Position numbers and translations under genes: made by a program
Notes under the pieces: generated by a model
What the model was told of the DNA's origin: nothing
What the model saw: only the letters and a program-made list of their open reading frames with translations
Databases searched by the model: none
Part shown: positions 12,399 to 37,205 of the stretch, piece after piece
How the letters are laid out: the number at the start of each line of letters is the position of its first letter
Numbering within the stretch: position 1 is the first letter of the stretch
Assembly: GCF_018613325.1 (NCBI RefSeq)
Contig: NZ_JAGGQJ010000023.1
Span: forward strand, 186,001-250,000
DNA length: 64,000 nucleotides
Direction of reading: 5' to 3'
DNA from: Bacillus sp. ISL-34
GTDB lineage: Bacteria; Bacillota; Bacilli; Bacillales; DSM-1321

Positions 12399-13950
<1,552 letters not shown>

Positions 13951-27862: not shown

Positions 27863-29165
27863 ATTTTACCTGCAGTGAATGCTCATAGGCTGCTTGGAAC
27901 TTTTGAATGTCCCCCGCACCCATGAATAACACGACACTGTTTTCATGATTTTGCAATATTGATGTTGTGTTCTCCGTAATCAGCTCGGCACCGGGAATCT
28001 TATCTTGAAGGTCTTCAATCGATAACTTCCCTTGATGTTCACGAGCAGATCCAAAAATTTCACATAAGTATACTTTGTCGGCCAAATTCAAGCTGTCGGC
28101 GAATTCATCAAGGAATGCCTGAGTTCTCGAGAAAGTATGCGGCTGGAATACCGCAACAACTTCACGCTCTGGGTATTTCTGACGGGCCGAGTCAACAGTT
28201 GCAGAGATTTCTGTCGGATGATGTGCATAATCATCAATGATGATCTGACTTCCGATTTCCTTCTCTGAGAACCGGCGTTTAACTCCGCCAAAAGTCCGCA
28301 ATTGGGCTTTCACAGCTTCCGTATCCAAGTTTTCATATTTACAAAGTGCAATGACACCAAGTGCATTCAACACATTATGCTTTCCAAAAGTAGGAATGGT
28401 GAATGTATCATAGTAATTGTTCCTTACATGCACATCAAAAGTCGTGCCATCCGGAGTGACGGAAACATTTTTCGCTTGAAAATCATTTCCTTCTCCAAAT
28501 CCGTAAAAAATAACCGGTACTTTCGCCTGAATATGTGGTAAATGTTCATCATCCCCGCACGCAATGATGCCTTTGTTGACTTGAAGGGCCATCGTTTGGA
28601 AAGCCTCGAACACGTCTTCGACATTGGCGTAATAATCAGGATGGTCAAAATCGATATTCGTCATGATCGCATAATCCGGATAATAGGAAAGGAAATGACG
28701 GCGATATTCACATGCTTCGAATACGAAGTAATCAGAATTCACGATTCCTTTACCCGTTCCATCCCCAATCAAGAAGGATGTCGGTTTAGCGCCCCCCATT
28801 ACATGGGCAAGTAAGCCGGTCGTCGATGTTTTACCATGCGCTCCCGTAACGGCCACGCTGATGAAGTTTTTCATGAAATCACCTAGGAAACGGTGATAAC
28901 GGATGATCGGCAAATCAAGTTCTTTTGCCTTCACGATTTCCGGATGACTATCCGGAAACGCATTTCCTGCAATGATGGTCATTCCAGGTTGAATATTTTC
29001 CTCGTTGAAAGGAAGGATTTTAATCCCGGCTTTTTCTAATGCCAATTGTGTAAAAAATTCTTTTTCGTAATCGGAACCCTGCACCTCAATATTCATATCA
29101 TGCAGTATTTGTGCTAGAGCACTCATACCCGACCCTTTAATTCCCACAAAATGGTAAGCAGTCAT
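27861..29165 (-). CDS. murC: UDP-N-acetylmuramate--L-alanine ligase
   Basis: A 434-residue Mur ligase that adds the first amino acid, L-alanine, to UDP-MurNAc with ATP. Seen: the N-terminal nucleotide-sugar domain [19 protein letters not shown], the ATP loop [17 protein letters not shown], the central [10 protein letters not shown], and [12 protein letters not shown] in the C-terminal domain. The start at 29165 (MTAYHFVG) follows GGTGGAGG; the in-frame extension to 29234 has no ribosome binding site. Located next to sftA as in B. subtilis. Confidence 0.96.
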
Positions 29166-29394
29166 AAAGCGAACCTCCACCAATCGTCTACCTGTATGAC
29201 AGTATATGACGTCATCTTTTATTTGTTTTTTCATTACGAGACTTGTTAGTAACGCAATTTCTTCATAGGTTTTTCAAGCTTATAATTTCAATCATTCATC
29301 AACAAAAAACTATTATATCACTTTTTTATTCATTCATCCATGTCAGGCAGATGCCAATTTATCAAATCATTGGCTTTTCCCTCAATTAAGGTGA

Positions 29395-29416
29395 TAAAAA
29401 AGGGTTTTCACCCTTT
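29395..29416 (-). terminator. Terminator of sftA
   Basis: Minus-strand AAAGGG-TGAAAA-CCC followed by six T residues; a short but plausible hairpin. Confidence 0.65.
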
Positions 29417-29450
29417 CACATTATATACAATTTCCTTTTATTAGGTTCTC

Positions 29451-32300
29451 TTAATTAACCTGTAAAAATTCCAGTTCTTCTTCCGTAATCAATACATCCC
29501 TGGGCCTTGAGCCCCTGGATTCGGAAACGACTCCATGTTGCTCCATCATTTCTATCAGGCGCGCTGCACGGTTATAACCGACACGGAAGCGCCTTTGGAC
29601 ACTAGATGCAGATGCAGCCTGCTGGCTCACGACAAATTCACAGGCCTCGAAAAACAGTTCATCCGCTTCTTCCGTGACCTGGGCCCTGTTCAGCAAGTCT
29701 TCCTGTTCAAACAGGTATTTCGGCTGCTGCTCCAGCTTAACATGGTTGACGACCTGGTCGATTTCTTCATCACTCACAAAAGTCCCTTGCAGGCGCACCG
29801 TTTTTGAAGAGCCGTTTTCAGCGAATAACATATCTCCTCTTCCCAATAATTTTTCTGCACCGCCGCTATCGATGATCGTACGGGAGTCGACTTGTGAAGA
29901 AACCGAAAAAGCGATCCTTGTCGGGATATTTGCCTTGATCAATCCAGTTATGACATCGACAGAAGGTCTTTGAGTGGCTACGATCAAATGGATGCCGCAG
30001 GCACGGGCCTTTTGAGCAATCCGGCAAATCGCTTCCTCTACATCAGCCGGGGACATCATCATTAAATCCGCAAGCTCATCGATGATCACCAGGATATAAG
30101 GCAGCTTGCTTGAATATTGACCGGCTTTTTCCGCTTGGTCATTAAAGCGGGTGATATCACGTACACCGGCATGTACAAACAATTCATAACGCCGTTCCAT
30201 CTCCTCTACAGCCCATTTCAACGCAGCCGTAGCGGCTTTTACATCGGTTATGACTGGACTGACTAAATGCGGAATCCGGTTATATGGGGCGAGCTCGACC
30301 ATTTTCGGATCGATCAACAGTAATTTCAACTCCTGCGGGGTCGCTTTATACAGCAAGCTGACCAGCATGGTGTTGATACAGACACTTTTCCCCGATCCCG
30401 TTTGCCCGGCTATCAATCCATGCGGCATCTTTCTCAAATCCGTAATAATCGGCTGACCGGAAATATCGAGTCCTAAAGCCACAGCAAGCGGTGATTCATG
30501 CTCTTGAAACTCAGTACTTTCCAAAACCTCCCGCAAAAATACCGGTTTGCTTTTTCTATTCGGAATCTCGATGCCAATTGTATGTTTACCCGGAATGGGC
30601 GCTTCCATCCGCATATCCTGAGCAGCAAGGCTTAATTTGATGTCATCCATCAGGTTCGTCACTTTATTCACCTTCACTCCCGGTTCCGGATGCACCTCGA
30701 AACGAGTTACTGCCGGTCCTTGAGTGACATTGACGACCTTTGCACGGACATTGAAATTTTTCAATGTCTCATCAAGTAATAAAGTCTGTTCCTCGAGCCA
30801 CTCATCATCATGCACAGCATAAGTGGGAGGTGTCAGCAATTCGATATTCGGAAACACATAGTATGGATTATCATCCGCTTCCACGGAGCCAAAAACTGCC
30901 GGGGTATCGCCCTCGCTGCTTTCTGCTGCCGCCTCTGAAGAAACTGCTTCTTGATACTCATTTCCAGATATGGGGGATTCCTGTTCAAAAGGCGGCTTAG
31001 TGACCGGGTTGGAACCGATATTGGATTCAACTGTATTTTCAGGCACAGCGGCGGTTTCGGAACCAACCTTAGTGTCCGAAAAGGTTGGTGTAATGGCCGG
31101 AGTCTCCTCTTTCGGCACAGCTCTGCCTTCCTCCGGTTCCCATTCAGGAATGGTGGATGGTTTCTCTTTTCCTGTCTCCGTTTGGGCGGCATCAGTCATT
31201 GGCCGCTTATCAGGTGAAACTACAGCCCTTTCCGAATTAGGGCTTTTTTTTTCCGTCATCATTTTATTCATGAAGCCATTTTTTTCGCGATCTTGCTTAA
31301 GCATCATCACATTAAACGGGATATGTTTTTTCGGACGTTTGTGCTGCACTTCCGGTATTGCCTCAGAAGGATCACTTTCAGGCAGTGTCCCTTGACTAAC
31401 GGATGGTTGAGTTGATTGTACAACCTCCCCAGGAACCGATATAGCTTCAGGCGTTGTGTCGTCCGCCTGTTCCATGATCGATACAGCGACTTCGCGTCCA
31501 AAATCGACTTCGTCTTGTTCAATAGCCTCTTTTTCTACCGGAGGCTCAATTATGTTAGGCTCGCTTACTGCTTGTTCTGGCAGTGACTCAATGGAATTCC
31601 TACGAAAGAAAGCGGGTATCTCTGAATCTTCCCGTTTTTCTTCCTCTTGTTCCGGTATAAGAACGGATGGTTCTGTCGTCAATTCCTCATGTGACACTTC
31701 TTTTGAGATTTCAGGAATCGATACTGGAATCTCGATATCGGGTTCTTCTTTTATAAGGACGGGCTTTTTGCTTTCCAATTCATATTCGACAATTTCTTCA
31801 GAAGCGACTATTTTTTTTTCCGGACGACGGAACCCATAAATGGGTGAAGGGATTTCCGTCGGACGGAATGGAGTATTTGAAGGGACTATTTTTGAGACTT
31901 CCTCCCTTTCGAAGCTTCTCCGTTTTGGTTCAGGATCCCTTACAGGCCTTCTCGTCGTTTCTTTGGTCACATTCTTCCCCTGTTTTGGTTCGAGTTCTTC
32001 CCTGTTTCTTTCCCTAGGTTTTCTTTTCTGTTCACGGTCTGGAATGAGCGGAAACTTGAACTGTCCTTTTGGATATTGAAACAGGATTTTCGTATCCGGG
32101 TCTGGCGTCAGCAACATTTTTTCCACTTTTTGATGGTAAACCTTTATTTCTTCTTCCTTTGACTTCGAAAGCTTCGAAAAATCCATTTTCCTTAATGTCT
32201 CTTCATCAAGCGGTTCATCTATAATAATTTCTTCAATTTCAATAATTTCCTCTGCTTGGAACCATTTTTTCATCTTATTTAGCCATTTCAAAACTATCAC
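29451..32300 (-). CDS. sftA: DNA translocase SftA (FtsK/SpoIIIE family)
   Basis: A septum-associated ATPase that moves DNA out of the closing septum. About 950 residues. The N-terminal 480 are hydrophilic, rich in Pro/Glu/Ser and low in complexity, with no membrane segments, which separates SftA from SpoIIIE. Then come the motor with Walker A GQTGSGKSVCIN and Walker B LLLIDPKMVE, and a C-terminal gamma winged helix (SSVQRRFRVGYNRAARLIE) that reads orientation sequences. Start uncertain: GTG at 32300, or the in-frame TTG at 32291, which has a better-spaced AAAGAG. Confidence 0.94.
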   Translation of the reverse strand: MIVLKWLNKMKKWFQAEEIIEIEEIIIDEPLDEETLRKMDFSKLSKSKEEEIKVYHQKVEKMLLTPDPDTKILFQYPKGQFKFPLIPDREQKRKPRERNREELEPKQGKNVTKETTRRPVRDPEPKRRSFEREEVSKIVPSNTPFRPTEIPSPIYGFRRPEKKIVASEEIVEYELESKKPVLIKEEPDIEIPVSIPEISKEVSHEELTTEPSVLIPEQEEEKREDSEIPAFFRRNSIESLPEQAVSEPNIIEPPVEKEAIEQDEVDFGREVAVSIMEQADDTTPEAISVPGEVVQSTQPSVSQGTLPESDPSEAIPEVQHKRPKKHIPFNVMMLKQDREKNGFMNKMMTEKKSPNSERAVVSPDKRPMTDAAQTETGKEKPSTIPEWEPEEGRAVPKEETPAITPTFSDTKVGSETAAVPENTVESNIGSNPVTKPPFEQESPISGNEYQEAVSSEAAAESSEGDTPAVFGSVEADDNPYYVFPNIELLTPPTYAVHDDEWLEEQTLLLDETLKNFNVRAKVVNVTQGPAVTRFEVHPEPGVKVNKVTNLMDDIKLSLAAQDMRMEAPIPGKHTIGIEIPNRKSKPVFLREVLESTEFQEHESPLAVALGLDISGQPIITDLRKMPHGLIAGQTGSGKSVCINTMLVSLLYKATPQELKLLLIDPKMVELAPYNRIPHLVSPVITDVKAATAALKWAVEEMERRYELFVHAGVRDITRFNDQAEKAGQYSSKLPYILVIIDELADLMMMSPADVEEAICRIAQKARACGIHLIVATQRPSVDVITGLIKANIPTRIAFSVSSQVDSRTIIDSGGAEKLLGRGDMLFAENGSSKTVRLQGTFVSDEEIDQVVNHVKLEQQPKYLFEQEDLLNRAQVTEEADELFFEACEFVVSQQAASASSVQRRFRVGYNRAARLIEMMEQHGVVSESRGSRPRDVLITEEELEFLQVN

Positions 32301-32630
32301 TCTTTCTACATCTGTAGTTATGTAACTAATTCTACCAGTTATTTTAAAAATATCGAGAAAATTTAAGCTAAATTGGGATTAGTATCTATTTTTTTATCGC
32401 ACTCTTACTAACTTAACGTATTTCGCAGAACTCCTACCCTATTAAACCCATTCTGGAATGAGCTTAAACCTACCCATCCGAAATAACATTAGCCCCTAGT
32501 CTACTATTTAAATAAAACACCGCTGTTAAATCGCGTTTACAAAGAGATTAAGTTTTCATGCAGCCCAGGAAGCAGACTGGTCAATTCATTGAAGCATCCT
32601 TCACGAAACCTCCGGTGGCATCCAAATACC
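32301..32630. other. Intergenic region upstream of sftA
   Basis: About 330 bases, AT-rich, with no coding frame I would support. It must hold the sftA promoter (minus strand). A plus-strand ATG frame from 32558 runs into the hairpin at 32631 and the antisense of the amidohydrolase and looks accidental. Confidence 0.45.
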
Positions 32631-32698
32631 TGCAGAAACCCATAAAACACCGTTCGTTAATACCGAACGGTGTTTTGTGGGTTTCTGCATTTTTTTTG
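32631..32698 (+). terminator. Long hairpin with plus-strand T-tract, no plus-strand gene upstream
   Basis: A 26-base arm (TGCAGAAACCCA..CACCGTTCG) pairs with its partner with only one G-T wobble, around a 7-base loop, and is followed on the plus strand by nine T residues. This is a textbook terminator for plus-strand transcription. The nearest genes are both on the minus strand. In the minus direction an A-tract precedes the hairpin and no T-tract follows. Confidence 0.7.
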
Positions 32699-32717
32699 CA
32701 AACAAATACCAATGGGA

Positions 32718-33917
32718 CTATTCCCATTCATAAAAACTGCATACAACCTGGGCCACTGATTTGGATGCGATCAAAAGGGCATCTTCATCAATGTCGAATT
32801 TAGGATGGTGATTGAAATATGCCTTCTCCACCCCTTTCGGTTTACAGCCAATGTAAAAGAAGCAGCCAGGAATCTTTTCTGCATAATACGAAAAATCTTC
32901 TGAACCTGAGAAAACCGGAAATTCCAAGACCTTCTTAATATCTTTGTCATTGATGCTTTCCAGGCTATTTTTTACGAATCCAGTCAGTTCAGGGTCATTA
33001 TATAACGGAGGATAATCAGGCACATATGTTAGTTCACACTGAACATCAAATTCCGTTTCTATCCCTTTGACGATCCGGTGGATTTCCTTATCGATCAGCT
33101 GTTGGGTCTCTGCTGTCATATAACGGACATCCCCTTCAATTTCTATACGATCTTTTATGACATTAAAGCTTCCTTTTCCATCGAAGGAGCCGATTGTGAC
33201 CACGCCCATATCAAAAGGGTTCAAGCGACGGCTGATTACGGTTTGTACGGCTGTCACGAAATGGGCGCCTGCCACAATGGCATCATTAGCCATATGCGGG
33301 GACGAACCATGGCCGCCCACACCCTTTATCGCCAACTTGAAATAGGTCCGTCCTGCCATCGAATAGCCGCCGTGATACCCGACAACCCCTGCTGGATGCG
33401 ACGGAAATAAGTGGATTCCAAAAACGGCATCCAGTTCATCCAATAACCCTGATTCCATAATGCTTTTTGCTCCTCCTGGGGGTGTTTCTTCTGCATGTTG
33501 ATGGATTATTTTGATCGTACCAGATAGGGAATCTTTAAGCTCATTGATGCAGTCTGCCAGAACCAATAAATAAGCGGTATGCCCATCGTGTCCGCAGGCA
33601 TGCATGACACCTTCATTTTTTGACCGGAACGGGACATCCGCTTCTTCTGTAATCGGCAATGCATCGAAATCCGCACGGAGACCTATAGTTTTTCCAGGTT
33701 TTCCGCATTCGATCGTTACGATGATCCCTAATCCATTTCCTACATTCGTTTGAATCGACACATTCTTCCCCTTATAATAATCAATGATATATTGTGCCGT
33801 TTTCTCTTCTTTGAAGGATAGTTCCGGATTCTCGTGTAAATGACGGCGGATTTGAACCATTTCCCCTTTACGGGCTTCCAGCATGTTCATTAATTTGCTT
33901 TTCACGTTCACGATCAT
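32718..33917 (-). CDS. M20D-family amidohydrolase (hippurate hydrolase-like)
   Basis: A 399-residue dinuclear-metal amidohydrolase of subfamily M20D, which includes hippurate hydrolase, N-acyl amino acid deacylases and IAA-amino acid hydrolases. Seen: LRADFDALPI, the metal motif HACGHDGH (106-113), HAEETPPGGAKSIMESG with catalytic E143/E144, and the late FSGSEDFSYYAE metal site. It starts eight bases after the MFS gene stop; that gap carries GGGGGAG, so GTG 33911 (seven bases downstream of it) may be the true start instead of ATG 33917. Second gene of the operon led by the glycine riboswitch. The substrate is unproven; N-acylglycines are an attractive guess. Confidence 0.85.
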   Translation of the reverse strand: MIVNVKSKLMNMLEARKGEMVQIRRHLHENPELSFKEEKTAQYIIDYYKGKNVSIQTNVGNGLGIIVTIECGKPGKTIGLRADFDALPITEEADVPFRSKNEGVMHACGHDGHTAYLLVLADCINELKDSLSGTIKIIHQHAEETPPGGAKSIMESGLLDELDAVFGIHLFPSHPAGVVGYHGGYSMAGRTYFKLAIKGVGGHGSSPHMANDAIVAGAHFVTAVQTVISRRLNPFDMGVVTIGSFDGKGSFNVIKDRIEIEGDVRYMTAETQQLIDKEIHRIVKGIETEFDVQCELTYVPDYPPLYNDPELTGFVKNSLESINDKDIKKVLEFPVFSGSEDFSYYAEKIPGCFFYIGCKPKGVEKAYFNHHPKFDIDEDALLIASKSVAQVVCSFYEWE

Positions 33918-33925
33918 TCTCCCCC

Positions 33926-35314
33926 TTATTTCAATATAAATTGTTTTTCAGGAATGCCTTTCGTAATGGCAGGCTTGGATTCATTCATTTTTTTCTTTGG
34001 AATGATGAACAATATGGAAAGCATTGCAAGTACAGCAAAAATGACATTTGTCGTTAATCCCGCAGCGGCAGCCACTTCCAAATTTTCAATCGTACCGTAC
34101 ACTGTGGCAGAGATGGCCACTCCAAACGATCCACCGAGTGAGCTTGCCATTTTATATATTCCTGATGCCTCACCAATCTTCTCAACAGGCGCATTGGAAA
34201 CCGCCGTGTCAATGGATGGGGTGGCGTACATTCCTAGTCCGATTCCCAACAAAGTGAACCCGACAAACACAACGACAGTGTAAATCGTTCCGGGTATAAA
34301 TGTTAAGGCCATCATCCCAACGCCAATCGCCGCTAATGTACAACCGATGATCATTGGTTTTCTTGCCCCGACCCGCTGTAATATTTTCTCACCAACACGA
34401 ATCATCGCTAATACACAAACCAAGTACCCCAGTGATAACAATCCGGATTGAAAGGCGTTGAACCCCCTTCCAACCTGTACATATGTATTGGCAACAACCA
34501 ACGTTCCCGCTACAGCATTCAGCAAAAAGTTAGAAAGGGTGGCCCCTGTATAGTATTTATTCTTAAATAAAGCCAGCTCAATGAACCCATTGGACTTGTT
34601 GCTTACGATTTTGAAGAATACTATAAATCCGATGATCATAATGGCGATTAAACTTAACGTAATTGGACTTGTCCAGCCAAAATCATCCCCACGTGTAATG
34701 ACCAGGTTCAATGCAAGCATAACGAAGACAAATATGGATAAACCAGCAATATCGAATTTAGACGAGCTCGTTTTTTCCGCTCTGCTTTCTGGTGTATCCT
34801 TAAGCAGGAACATCGCTAGTAAAGCAAAAAGAATGGAGAATATGAAAATCCATCTCCAATCCATATATGTTGCAATCGCTCCCCCTGCAAAAGAACAGAT
34901 ACCTGAACCTCCCCAAGAACCAAAAGACCAATAGCTTAAGGCACGCTGCCTATTTTCCCCTTCATAATACGATTTGATCAAGGCGATGGTTGACGGCATG
35001 ATACAGGCGGCGGATAAACCTTGGATGACTCGCCCGATGATCAGCATTCCGGCACCTTGCGCTAAGATAAGGCAAAGAGAGCCTATAATACTCAATGTTA
35101 AACCGATATATGTCATTCTCTTTCTTCCAACCTTATCAGCCAATCCTCCGGCTGCAACGACAAAAATCCCTGAGAATAAAGCAGTTAAACTGATGGCGAC
35201 ATTTAAAACGCCTAATGAAATACCGAGATCTGACTGAACTGCCGGAACTACATTTACCATCGTCTGGGCAAAAAGCCAAAATGTGAGAACACCAAACACA
35301 ATTCCCGTTATCAT
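33926..35314 (-). CDS. MFS transporter, DHA2-like, under a glycine riboswitch
   Basis: A major facilitator protein of 462 residues from the ATG used here, with about 14 hydrophobic segments. The loop motif GGLADKVGRKRMTYIG follows the second segment, and GRVIQGLSAACIMPSTIALI matches the drug:H+ antiporter DHA2 pattern. Substrate unknown; uptake or export of an amino acid or conjugate is inferred from context. ATG 35314 has only a weak AAGGT site. The frame stays open upstream to an ATA at 35344 behind GGGGGGAG, which may be the genuine, non-canonical start (ten more residues, IETNYQGTNK). It forms an operon with the M20D gene. Confidence 0.85.
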   Translation of the reverse strand: MITGIVFGVLTFWLFAQTMVNVVPAVQSDLGISLGVLNVAISLTALFSGIFVVAAGGLADKVGRKRMTYIGLTLSIIGSLCLILAQGAGMLIIGRVIQGLSAACIMPSTIALIKSYYEGENRQRALSYWSFGSWGGSGICSFAGGAIATYMDWRWIFIFSILFALLAMFLLKDTPESRAEKTSSSKFDIAGLSIFVFVMLALNLVITRGDDFGWTSPITLSLIAIMIIGFIVFFKIVSNKSNGFIELALFKNKYYTGATLSNFLLNAVAGTLVVANTYVQVGRGFNAFQSGLLSLGYLVCVLAMIRVGEKILQRVGARKPMIIGCTLAAIGVGMMALTFIPGTIYTVVVFVGFTLLGIGLGMYATPSIDTAVSNAPVEKIGEASGIYKMASSLGGSFGVAISATVYGTIENLEVAAAAGLTTNVIFAVLAMLSILFIIPKKKMNESKPAITKGIPEKQFILK

Positions 35315-35378
35315 CTTATTGGTACCTTGATAGTTCGTTTCTATCTTACTCCCCCCTTATTATCAATCCTCACATTAC

Positions 35379-35396
35379 CTACCTACTGCTACTCAT
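35379..35396 (-). CDS. Five-codon leader peptide ahead of the MFS gene
   Basis: AAGGAGG sits eight bases before an ATG that reads MSSSR and then TAG. This is the best ribosome binding site in the region, yet it opens only a five-codon frame, out of phase with the transporter 35-65 bases downstream. It may be a translated leader that feeds ribosomes to the weak MFS start. It could also be the remains of an older start. Confidence 0.35.
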   Translation of the reverse strand: MSSSR

Positions 35397-35499
35397 TGTC
35401 TAAACCTCCTTAAATAGTAAGTTTCCTGTTTACTTCACGCCTCCCGTGTGCAAAGTCAATTAAATAAATAACAATTGACCCATTCTTTTTTTTCACGCT

Positions 35500-35555
35500 A
35501 AAAAAGGACAGAGAAGGGTTGCGTAAACTTACTGCTCCCCTTCTCTGTCCTTTTT
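35500..35555 (-). terminator. Terminator of the glycine riboswitch (expression platform)
   Basis: Minus-strand AAAAAGGACAGAGAAGGG pairs perfectly with CCCTTCTCTGTCCTTTTT around a 19-base loop and ends in a T-run. Its 5' arm contains CAGAG, which can instead pair with CTCTG (35629-35633) in the second aptamer. Glycine binding should therefore prevent termination. Confidence 0.88.
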
Positions 35556-35735
35556 ACCTGAGAGTTTAACTCCATTTTTGGTCATGGAGGTTTCCCCTTT
35601 GGTGGCACACTGCTTCATGCGCGCTCTCCAGAGTTGCGTCCAGCTGTGGTTCCATTTACCTGAGAGATTTGCTCCAAGGGTGATTTTTTGGAACTTGCTC
35701 CTTCGGTGGCTCAATGATTTGCACTCTCCCACAAC
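35535..35735 (-). promoter_or_regulatory. Tandem glycine riboswitch (gcvT type)
   Basis: Two consecutive aptamers are readable on the minus strand. The first (about 35735-35648) runs from GGGAGAGTGCA through GCCACCGAAGGAGCAA to ATCTCTCAGGTAA. The second (about 35640-35535) runs from CTCTGGAGAGCGC through GTGCCACCAAAGGGGAAACC to ACTCTCAGGTA and AAAGGACAGAG. These are the conserved glycine-aptamer cores. A terminator follows at once. The downstream genes are an MFS transporter and an M20D hydrolase, not gcvT or an alanine/glycine symporter. Confidence 0.95.
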
Positions 35736-35797
35736 GTTCATCCGCTTATATAGTTTATATTCAAATATTTTTTATATTTTCTAAATATTCCAACTAT

Positions 35798-35826
35798 ATT
35801 ATCTCCCATTAAAAAATAAATATCAA
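35798..35826 (-). promoter_or_regulatory. Promoter of the glycine-riboswitch operon
   Basis: Minus-strand TTGATA, a 17-base spacer and GATAAT, about 60 bases upstream of the first aptamer. Confidence 0.65.
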
Positions 35827-35878
35827 CTCATTTCCCTGAGATTTCCTTGTTGAAATCAAGGCGACTCTATTAAACTTT

Positions 35879-35912
35879 AAAAGGACCGCTGCCAGATGCT
35901 GACACGGTCCTT
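35879..35912 (-). terminator. Terminator of ytpP-ytpQ
   Basis: Minus-strand AAGGACCG pairs with CGGTCCTT and ends in TTTTAAAG, just after the ytpQ stop codon. Confidence 0.8.
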
Positions 35913-35927
35913 ATGTGTTTCAATATA

Positions 35928-36734
35928 TTATTGTTCACGCTTTTTGTTTTTACCCATAATGAAGATGGGCTCCAACTCATTTTCTTCGTAAAGGAATGAT
36001 AGAGCCGTTATTGGAACATGACCGCTGGCAAAGAAGCTCATGGCCATTTGCGCAAGAATATCATAGCCCGTATCATTCTTCACATCGGCAATGATGATGA
36101 CATCCTGATGGGGAATGGCCACAGCCATTGTTCCCTCAATCTTGTCCCTCATTTCCCGAAGCCATGATTCATTTAGAATCCTGCTGGCATCATATCCATC
36201 ATTCGTGTTCAAAAAATAAAATGCATTACCGGCAACGATATCCGACTTCATTTCAGTGGAGAGGGAACGGGCATTGAAAAGGGCAATTTCACGAATCCTG
36301 TCACCCTGCCAATTTTCCCGTTGAATCATCTTTTCATCTATAAGACGGTAGGTTTTCCCTAAATCCAGGGCATAAAAAATCCGGGTTTCAGCCGTATGCT
36401 CATCGAATAAAAATGGATTTCCTTCTTCCGATTCCATTGGAAAGGAGGTCGAGCGGATGACTGGGAAAATAAATTTCTCCTTGCCTTCCATGCTGTGTTC
36501 TTCCCCCATCACATTCAGGGCCTCTTCCACGTAATAGGTAATTTCATCGATGGCCTTTTCCTGTACGTTTTCATAGTTAGCAAGTACAGGAGGCAACTCG
36601 ATGGTGATCCCCTTTCCGGTCTTCACATTCTCCACCCGTAACGTATCTTGCTTGCTATCGAATTTGAATGTGCGATTCTCATCTTTTAAACGTTCCTTCA
36701 AGATATTTTTCAGCTTCGTGCTGTCCATTTTCAT
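35928..36734 (-). CDS. ytpQ: YtpQ, DUF1444 protein
   Basis: A 268-residue cytoplasmic protein of the DUF1444 family; molecular function unknown. Hydrophilic overall, with a C-terminal alpha/beta part ([20 protein letters not shown]) and no membrane segment or signal peptide. The ATG follows GAGGAGGG. Its neighbour is the thioredoxin-like ytpP 50 bases upstream, so the two form an operon as in B. subtilis. The call rests on length, synteny and the general DUF1444 look. Confidence 0.85.
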
Positions 36735-36784
36735 GACTGACCCTCCTCTTCATTGAAAAATCCCCAGCGAGAAGGGGAAATTGA

Positions 36785-37096
36785 TTATAGTGATTGAATG
36801 AATTCCTCAATTTGTTCTTGCGTTTTGCGATCCTTGCTCACGAATCTGCCTAGCTCTTTGCCATTATCATACGCGATGAAACTTGGTATACCGAATACAT
36901 CATTAGCCGCGCACACATCGATGAATTCATCACGGTCCACATGAATGAATGTAAAGTCAGGAAATTTCGTTTCAATCTCCGGCATTATCGGTTCGATTAC
37001 ACGGCAATCTCCACACCATGTTGCTGAAAAAAGAAAGATATGTTTGCCTTCATTTTTCAATGCATCATATTGCTCAACGGTTTGTAAATTTTCCAT
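36785..37096 (-). CDS. ytpP: Thioredoxin-like protein YtpP
   Basis: A 103-residue thioredoxin-fold protein. The active site is SATWCGDCRVIEPI, with C28 and C31, that is CGDC in place of the CGPC of classical thioredoxin. The cis-proline loop FGIPSFIAY is present. Cytoplasmic thiol-disulfide exchange is expected; specific partners are unknown. The ATG follows GGAGGAATATT. First gene of ytpP-ytpQ. Confidence 0.92.
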   Translation of the reverse strand: MENLQTVEQYDALKNEGKHIFLFSATWCGDCRVIEPIMPEIETKFPDFTFIHVDRDEFIDVCAANDVFGIPSFIAYDNGKELGRFVSKDRKTQEQIEEFIQSL

Positions 37097-37205
37097 TTGA
37101 ATATTCCTCCTGCTCTAAATGACACCTTAGTTTTTATAATCCCATCATACCAGACTCTTCACGAATCAACCATTAATACGGATCGATTGAAAGGCAGGGG
37201 GCATC

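Follow-up and report, generated by a model that had tools for sequence, protein, structure and literature searches.

A tandem glycine riboswitch overlapped by an intrinsic terminator lies, in Bacillus sp. ISL-34, before a gene for a transporter of the major facilitator superfamily (MFS) that is itself followed by a gene for an M20D amidohydrolase. The stretch analysed, termed here the window, is 64,000 nt of the forward strand of NZ_JAGGQJ010000023.1, positions 186,001-250,000 (GCF_018613325.1), and coordinates below are positions in it; the locus is on the minus strand, in the order promoter-like site, tandem glycine riboswitch, terminator, MFS gene, M20D gene, hairpin. The robust conclusion from comparing gene order in related genomes is that the conserved unit is riboswitch plus M20D gene, with the hydrolase a conserved predicted glycine riboswitch target in one lineage. 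An earlier reading of the window from its letters alone (the sequence-only reading) had taken MFS and M20D genes together as the riboswitch's unit, and in this it fails, as eight relatives keep switch and hydrolase with no MFS gene at the site. The M20D locus is a new target of a known riboswitch, not a new kind of system, and with it an amide-cutting hydrolase joins the targets of the glycine riboswitch. Our preferred reading, given a probability of roughly 0.55, is that a glycine-induced hydrolase frees amino acids, glycine probably included, from N-acyl or dipeptide conjugates. The RNA would then point to the relevant amino acid in this lineage, and so offer a handle on the substrate of hydrolase-transporter pairs, which are common in Bacillales.

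With Rfam models, the glycine aptamer family RF00504 matches aptamer I at 35637-35741 (minus strand) with 53.9 bits against a gathering score of 32, and the glycine-GGAnGA tandem family RF03166 matches the two aptamers at 35541-35745 with 85.8 bits (E 1.9e-18), under its gathering score of 110. The shortfall is no mark against the switch in the window, because the tandem switch before gcvT in the same genome, at 96.4 bits with RF03166, is likewise under that score. A covariance model of our own, R1, gives 188.4 bits (E 8.7e-51), the window being one of the five tandem switches on which it was trained. The covariance-model search that the sequence-only reading had proposed thus succeeded for the single aptamer and fell short for the tandem family, with the feature extending to 35745; the complete tandem glycine aptamer with a terminator that it described is borne out by the two matches together with the terminator fold given below. 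In an alignment of 38 switch matches, standard base pairing holds for 94.4% of paired cells and both partners change in 28 of 44 pairs, a level as high being reached in none of 500 shuffles and slid controls dropping to 32-49%, though these figures are favoured by the alignment having 33 hand-chosen sources, being fitted to the structure and holding related rows. So judged, the window leader has the conserved helices and covariation of a glycine riboswitch, and the observation of such a riboswitch before MFS and M20D genes at this locus is, at the level of sequence, confirmed. Aptamer II (35541..35636; fold -28.5 kcal/mol, z -3.0) is closed by a helix paired in all 38 switches of this structure-fitted alignment; four of its five pairs are invariant, as expected if its 3′ strand doubles as a terminator strand. 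The fold of aptamer I taken alone is no better than that of shuffles (z -0.23). Matches of miRNA families to the terminator were set aside, every one being below its gathering score.

The terminator (35504..35552, followed by a run of six Ts) overlaps the 3′ strand of aptamer II and folds at -31.9 kcal/mol (z -7.1), with none of 200 shuffles as good. Common to both structures is CAGAG at 35547-35543, which pairs with CUCUG at 35633-35629 in the closing helix of aptamer II and is also part of the 5′ arm of the terminator; at sequence level this bears out the prediction in the sequence-only reading that glycine would switch the operon on. Folded freely, the leader reaches -88.2 kcal/mol versus -69.0 with the aptamer helix forced, so that unaided it favours the terminator and ligand binding during transcription must hold the aptamer helix. 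Leaders of relatives also have the terminator, with a nearly constant 5′ arm and a more variable 3′ arm, as expected from double use of the 5′ arm. The leader is best classed as a transcriptional ON switch of the gcvT type, and glycine should turn the genes on, a response that we infer from this design. Without glycine, the CAGAG strand would join the terminator and transcription would end; with glycine, it would close aptamer II, the terminator would be blocked and the genes behind it would be transcribed.

What lies behind the switch in relatives is seen at the site between ytpQ and sftA, viewed in 23 of 36 genomes of the genus (the other 13 have a best hydrolase match of at most 81%). An intact M20D hydrolase is present there in 16 of the 23, window included, and in nine of the 16 it is preceded by a full tandem switch: the window, G001, G007, G016, G020, G021, G022, G024 and G034. 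In the eight other species the orthologous hydrolase is 91-98% identical and starts 121-171 bases past the switch, with no MFS gene at the site. Collinearity with these relatives supports the claim of an insertion between ytpQ and sftA. By blastn, the window is collinear with L182 (from G024) over 29000-33934 at 94.6% and over 35499-37196 at 93.3%, where L182 has 58 bp between, and 25 bp separate the two matches of L183 to the flanks of the window; the inserted segment holding the MFS gene is accordingly 33935-35498 versus L182 and 33983..35465 versus L183. On these comparisons, the MFS gene is an insertion of about 1.5 kb between terminator and hydrolase, present among the genomes compared only in this one. 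The window falls within the switch-bearing genomes of the genus on the hydrolase tree, which makes one gain of the MFS gene simpler than repeated losses. A three-part operon as the ancestral unit was rejected, given the eight relatives without MFS at the site and the position of the window hydrolase inside their group. (This tree and the MFS tree discussed below are quick trees with no bootstrap, made after removal of rows under 375 aa for M20D or 440 aa for MFS, of near-duplicates and of L005, which is the window itself.) Hydrolase is absent from the site in G012 and G013, and none was seen there in G003. The statement that the operon is neither gcv nor a glycine symporter holds. The placing of B. 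subtilis ytpR/ytpS here in the sequence-only reading was inexact: no separate short ytpR was seen, the two tRNA_bind domains of the genome being in 657- and 809-aa frames, and ytpS we take to be sftA itself. A weak switch match in L253 (11.9 bits) was set aside, as its coordinates place it within sftA instead of the gap before M20D.

Assignment of the hydrolase (32718..33917, minus strand) to M20D follows from 352.1 bits with TIGR01891 against a cut-off of 153.75, and the metal motifs align. The closest solved structures are PDB 4ewt (E 1.5e-142) and then B. subtilis YxeP, 1ysj (E 4.6e-73), both, like the window enzyme, of the M20D family and with HACGHD, EE and HHP of the metal site aligned; to our knowledge, neither YxeP nor the 4ewt peptidase has a riboswitch link. 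As to hippurate hydrolase, the N-benzoylglycine-cleaving enzyme brought up in the sequence-only reading, no equivalog model reached its cut-off, HipO not being among the comparisons.

The transporter gene (33926..35344, minus strand) encodes an MFS protein (PF07690, E 6.5e-50) for which the best NCBIfam model is TIGR00711, of DHA2/EmrB efflux proteins, at 141.5 bits (E 3.4e-41), under the cut-off of 230.2; on these scores the protein is DHA2-like and is not filed as a drug pump. At 35344 its frame has ATA; in 109 of 118 homologous frames a Met lies at most two residues from this point, and the earliest ATG of the window gene, at 35314, is its codon 11. The ATA start leaves activity of the transporter uncertain; its production, like the direction in which it would transport, we infer. 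The protein database entry is for 462 aa and is from one contig. With 8000 candidates scored and 1009 proteins found, the best 120 include none from outside this genome with more than 79% identity, and on the MFS tree, where long branches are flagged, the donor could not be placed.

A second link between switch and hydrolase occurs in another family. In G408 (L200 1648-4665), a tandem glycine switch is followed by genes for a DUF5058 membrane protein, a 243-aa protein that matches nothing in Pfam or NCBIfam, and an M20D hydrolase sharing 75% identity with that of the window. On the hydrolase tree the glycine-switch hydrolases group, a branch with SH-aLRT 83 separating 11 of the 112 rows from the rest, and L200 is on a long branch beside the genus group, a position compatible with either one origin or two for the switch-hydrolase link. 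A hydrolase match at E 1e-140 is present in 41 of 397 genomes of the order, and outside the genus, among the switches listed, G408 is the sole case of switch and hydrolase side by side. (For such comparisons, 40 regions were chosen by hand from the matches listed.)

Several other glycine-switch loci deserve mention. In L205 (6484-9761), the second glycine riboswitch of the locus precedes genes for a relative of the DUF5058 protein of L200 and for two further proteins, of 236 aa and 475 aa. In L264, L265 and L266, a second M20D gene (72-73%) lies immediately 5′ of a cluster that has two glycine riboswitches; these second copies, in G001, G017 and G022, were not used as strong support, as the three are close relatives and probably reflect one event. 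L269 (2586-7714) has a pair of consecutive glycine riboswitches, of which one precedes an amino acid permease gene and the other precedes genes for serine hydroxymethyltransferase (SHMT), serine dehydratase and further glycine functions. The names gcvT, gcvP, permease, SHMT and serine dehydratase were checked with Pfam in L269, L272 and L273; these names in other loci, like purU, come from visual inspection.

Elsewhere in Bacillales the partnership of transporter and hydrolase is common. In the 80 named loci, which are the best 80 of at least 422 relatives of the MFS protein, an MFS-M20D pair (within 700 bp and on the same strand) is present in 68, and an AryK-like AraC-GH39 regulator is upstream in 38, a label that comes from one protein, L095 (507.8 bits, below the cut-off of 850), together with Pfam. 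Within pairs, both proteins are homologous to those of the window, the transporter at 65-76% identity and the hydrolase mostly at 68-80%, with some at 54-58%. The difference from the window is in the leader: a glycine switch was not found in 77 of the 80, and in the three that have one (L086, L087 and L088) no M20D gene is beside the MFS gene. The synteny survey proposed in the sequence-only reading thus shows the pair itself not to be unusual and its leader to be so. That reading had counted wide conservation of the pair under unrelated leaders, with a non-glycine substrate, as speaking against it; of this, the half that concerns leaders was found. A glycine switch directly before an MFS gene, without M20D, is present in four other loci: L013 (the same as L086), L014 (the same as L087), L016, which is a further MFS copy behind a glycine switch in G023, the genome of L014, and L088. 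In L015, L017 and L018 the MFS gene follows one for a ureohydrolase, of which a relative in L269 scores as agmatinase. To judge from such neighbourhoods, the MFS family travels with hydrolases that cut amides or guanidines, and five rows have it with a glycine switch; on the MFS tree these five, window included, need one label change (support 60, with a long-branch warning). Addition of the MFS gene in this genome next to a member of the hydrolase family that it accompanies elsewhere suggests partnership, and is a case of a transporter gene cleanly placed between a riboswitch and its older target. As a separate observation, in L208, L209, L210 and L211 a glycine riboswitch directly follows a gene for an arginase-family (agmatinase-like) ureohydrolase, and the sequence past the switch is unrelated or decayed; the ureohydrolase preceding the MFS gene in L015, L017 and L018 is a relative at 79-80% identity, and no MFS remnant was found near these orphan switches at E <0.05.

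With regard to known systems, no glycine riboswitch before an M20D hydrolase or MFS gene was found in searches of open-licence PMC papers, and within that scope the claim that no operon of this make-up is described stands. Genes behind glycine riboswitches have been classed as glycine metabolism, glycine transporters and serine metabolism, with ‘amidohydrolase’ absent from the main text (PMC3766115), and another report places a putative glycine riboswitch before an uncharacterized B. methanolicus gene (PMC4342826). The closest relative of the window leader in design is the Bacillus-type gcvT tandem switch, with which it shares two aptamers, one terminator and use of the aptamer II 3′ strand in the terminator arm; in the genome of the window, such a tandem switch precedes gcvT and gcvP genes, with many core letters invariant between the two leaders, and a single switch precedes an amino acid permease gene. 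However, gcvT-type switches have genes for glycine cleavage, glyA, serine dehydratase or amino acid permease behind them, where the window has an amidohydrolase with a transporter between. A parallel exists in C. difficile, with a reported lysine riboswitch before yfcC in an apparent operon with an M20D amidohydrolase (PMC11477304); an amino acid riboswitch, a transporter gene and an M20D hydrolase are in common, but the ligand there is lysine and not glycine, and the transporter is of the YfcC type and not MFS. M20D-type amhX behind SAM or T-box tandems is also on record (PMC12452182).

On the preferred reading, glycine would induce the M20D hydrolase together with the glycine cleavage genes that are under the same kind of switch, and the enzyme would most likely release amino acids from N-acyl or dipeptide conjugates, its product being the inducer. 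Induction by a product is seen in many catabolic pathways. The MFS gene, of a family that neighbours M20D genes in other Bacillales, would have come under the switch on insertion between terminator and hydrolase, and its protein would probably move conjugate or product. A glycine-releasing role fits because of the regulator and because glycine catabolism genes are under like switches. More tentative is a broader Bacillales route for glycine conjugates, in which MFS or DUF5058 proteins would import N-acyl or peptidyl glycine for M20D enzymes to cut, with the freed glycine inducing both its own release and glycine cleavage, and with MFS a secondary addition in the window.

A number of points weigh against the preferred reading. 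Seven of the 16 genomes with an intact hydrolase at the site are without the full switch: in G031 the hydrolase is 96% identical and a 160 bp gap before its gene has no switch, in G025 aptamer I is followed by a 238-aa gene (no Pfam match) in place of aptamer II, and in G004, G014, G018, G019 and G030 no switch was found before the hydrolase (86-88% identical). In G008, switch and hydrolase are both damaged, with the same insert as in G025, in a genome having several other broken frames, and G006, G017 and G029 keep mere fragments of the hydrolase gene at the site. The common MFS-M20D pairs are mostly without a glycine switch, which argues that the pair can function without glycine control. 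Many different N-acyl amino acids serve as substrates of M20D enzymes, any glycine preference here being presumptive, induction by product would be self-reinforcing, the MFS gene is without ATG at the usual start place, and the basis of the reading is comparative.

Almost as good a fit as glycine release is general aminoacylase activity for which glycine is a signal. A broad aminoacylase or dipeptidase would then serve salvage, and glycine would indicate a surplus of amino acids or peptides without being a special product. The broad or other specificities described for several aminoacylases, M20D members included (PMC11511702), argue for this, as do the M20D-type genes behind the lysine riboswitch and SAM or T-box tandems (PMC11477304 and PMC12452182). 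The grouping of glycine-switch hydrolases on the tree and the other case of association, in which the membrane protein differs (DUF5058), count the other way, and we regard such salvage as doubtful. An outlet for glycine, with the MFS protein exporting excess glycine or a glycine product and the hydrolase merely co-transcribed, would suit the kinship of the protein with the DHA2 efflux group, the loci with a switch directly before MFS and no M20D (L013, L014, L016 and L088) and the single label change for the five switch-bearing rows of the MFS tree, with the same support of 60 and long-branch warning, and an ON switch is compatible with export. Such an outlet is nevertheless improbable in view of the eight relatives that, at the same site, keep switch and hydrolase with no MFS, of the MFS genes that elsewhere adjoin hydrolases (M20D, or ureohydrolase in L015, L017 and L018) and of DHA2 kinship not fixing transport direction. 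Equally improbable is that a riboswitch copy landed by chance before a moving gene at a changeable site and was tolerated, not selected. The site is certainly variable (G031 has no switch, G025 and G008 have a cut one, fragments of the gene remain in G006, G017 and G029, and the gene is missing from G012 and G013), and the ATA start of the MFS gene is in keeping with such an event, but switch, terminator and hydrolase frame have stayed together in nine genomes, one of the nine sharing 85% DNA identity across the stretch from hydrolase to sftA.

The remaining features of the locus are minor. A promoter-like site 5′ of the riboswitch, TTGATA-17-GATAAT (35798..35826, minus strand), matches consensus at 10 of 12 positions; with seven such sites in the region against 8.5 expected in shuffles, the one at 35826-35798 alone is not significant. 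The same two hexamers also precede the cut switches of L260 and L263 and are present at the same site in switchless L257. (In L260 and L263 the glycine riboswitch is cut after aptamer I by a 238-aa gene, whose copy in L260, the same as in L212, has no Pfam match.) A five-codon open frame behind AAGGAGG (35379..35396, minus strand) is between terminator and MFS gene, inside the inserted segment. The strong hairpin 3′ of the hydrolase gene (32637..32683; 20 pairs counted, reported on the plus strand), flanked by T and A runs, is likely the end of the operon. Distant from the locus, the window also has a T-box leader on the minus strand at 13722-13938 (153 bits).

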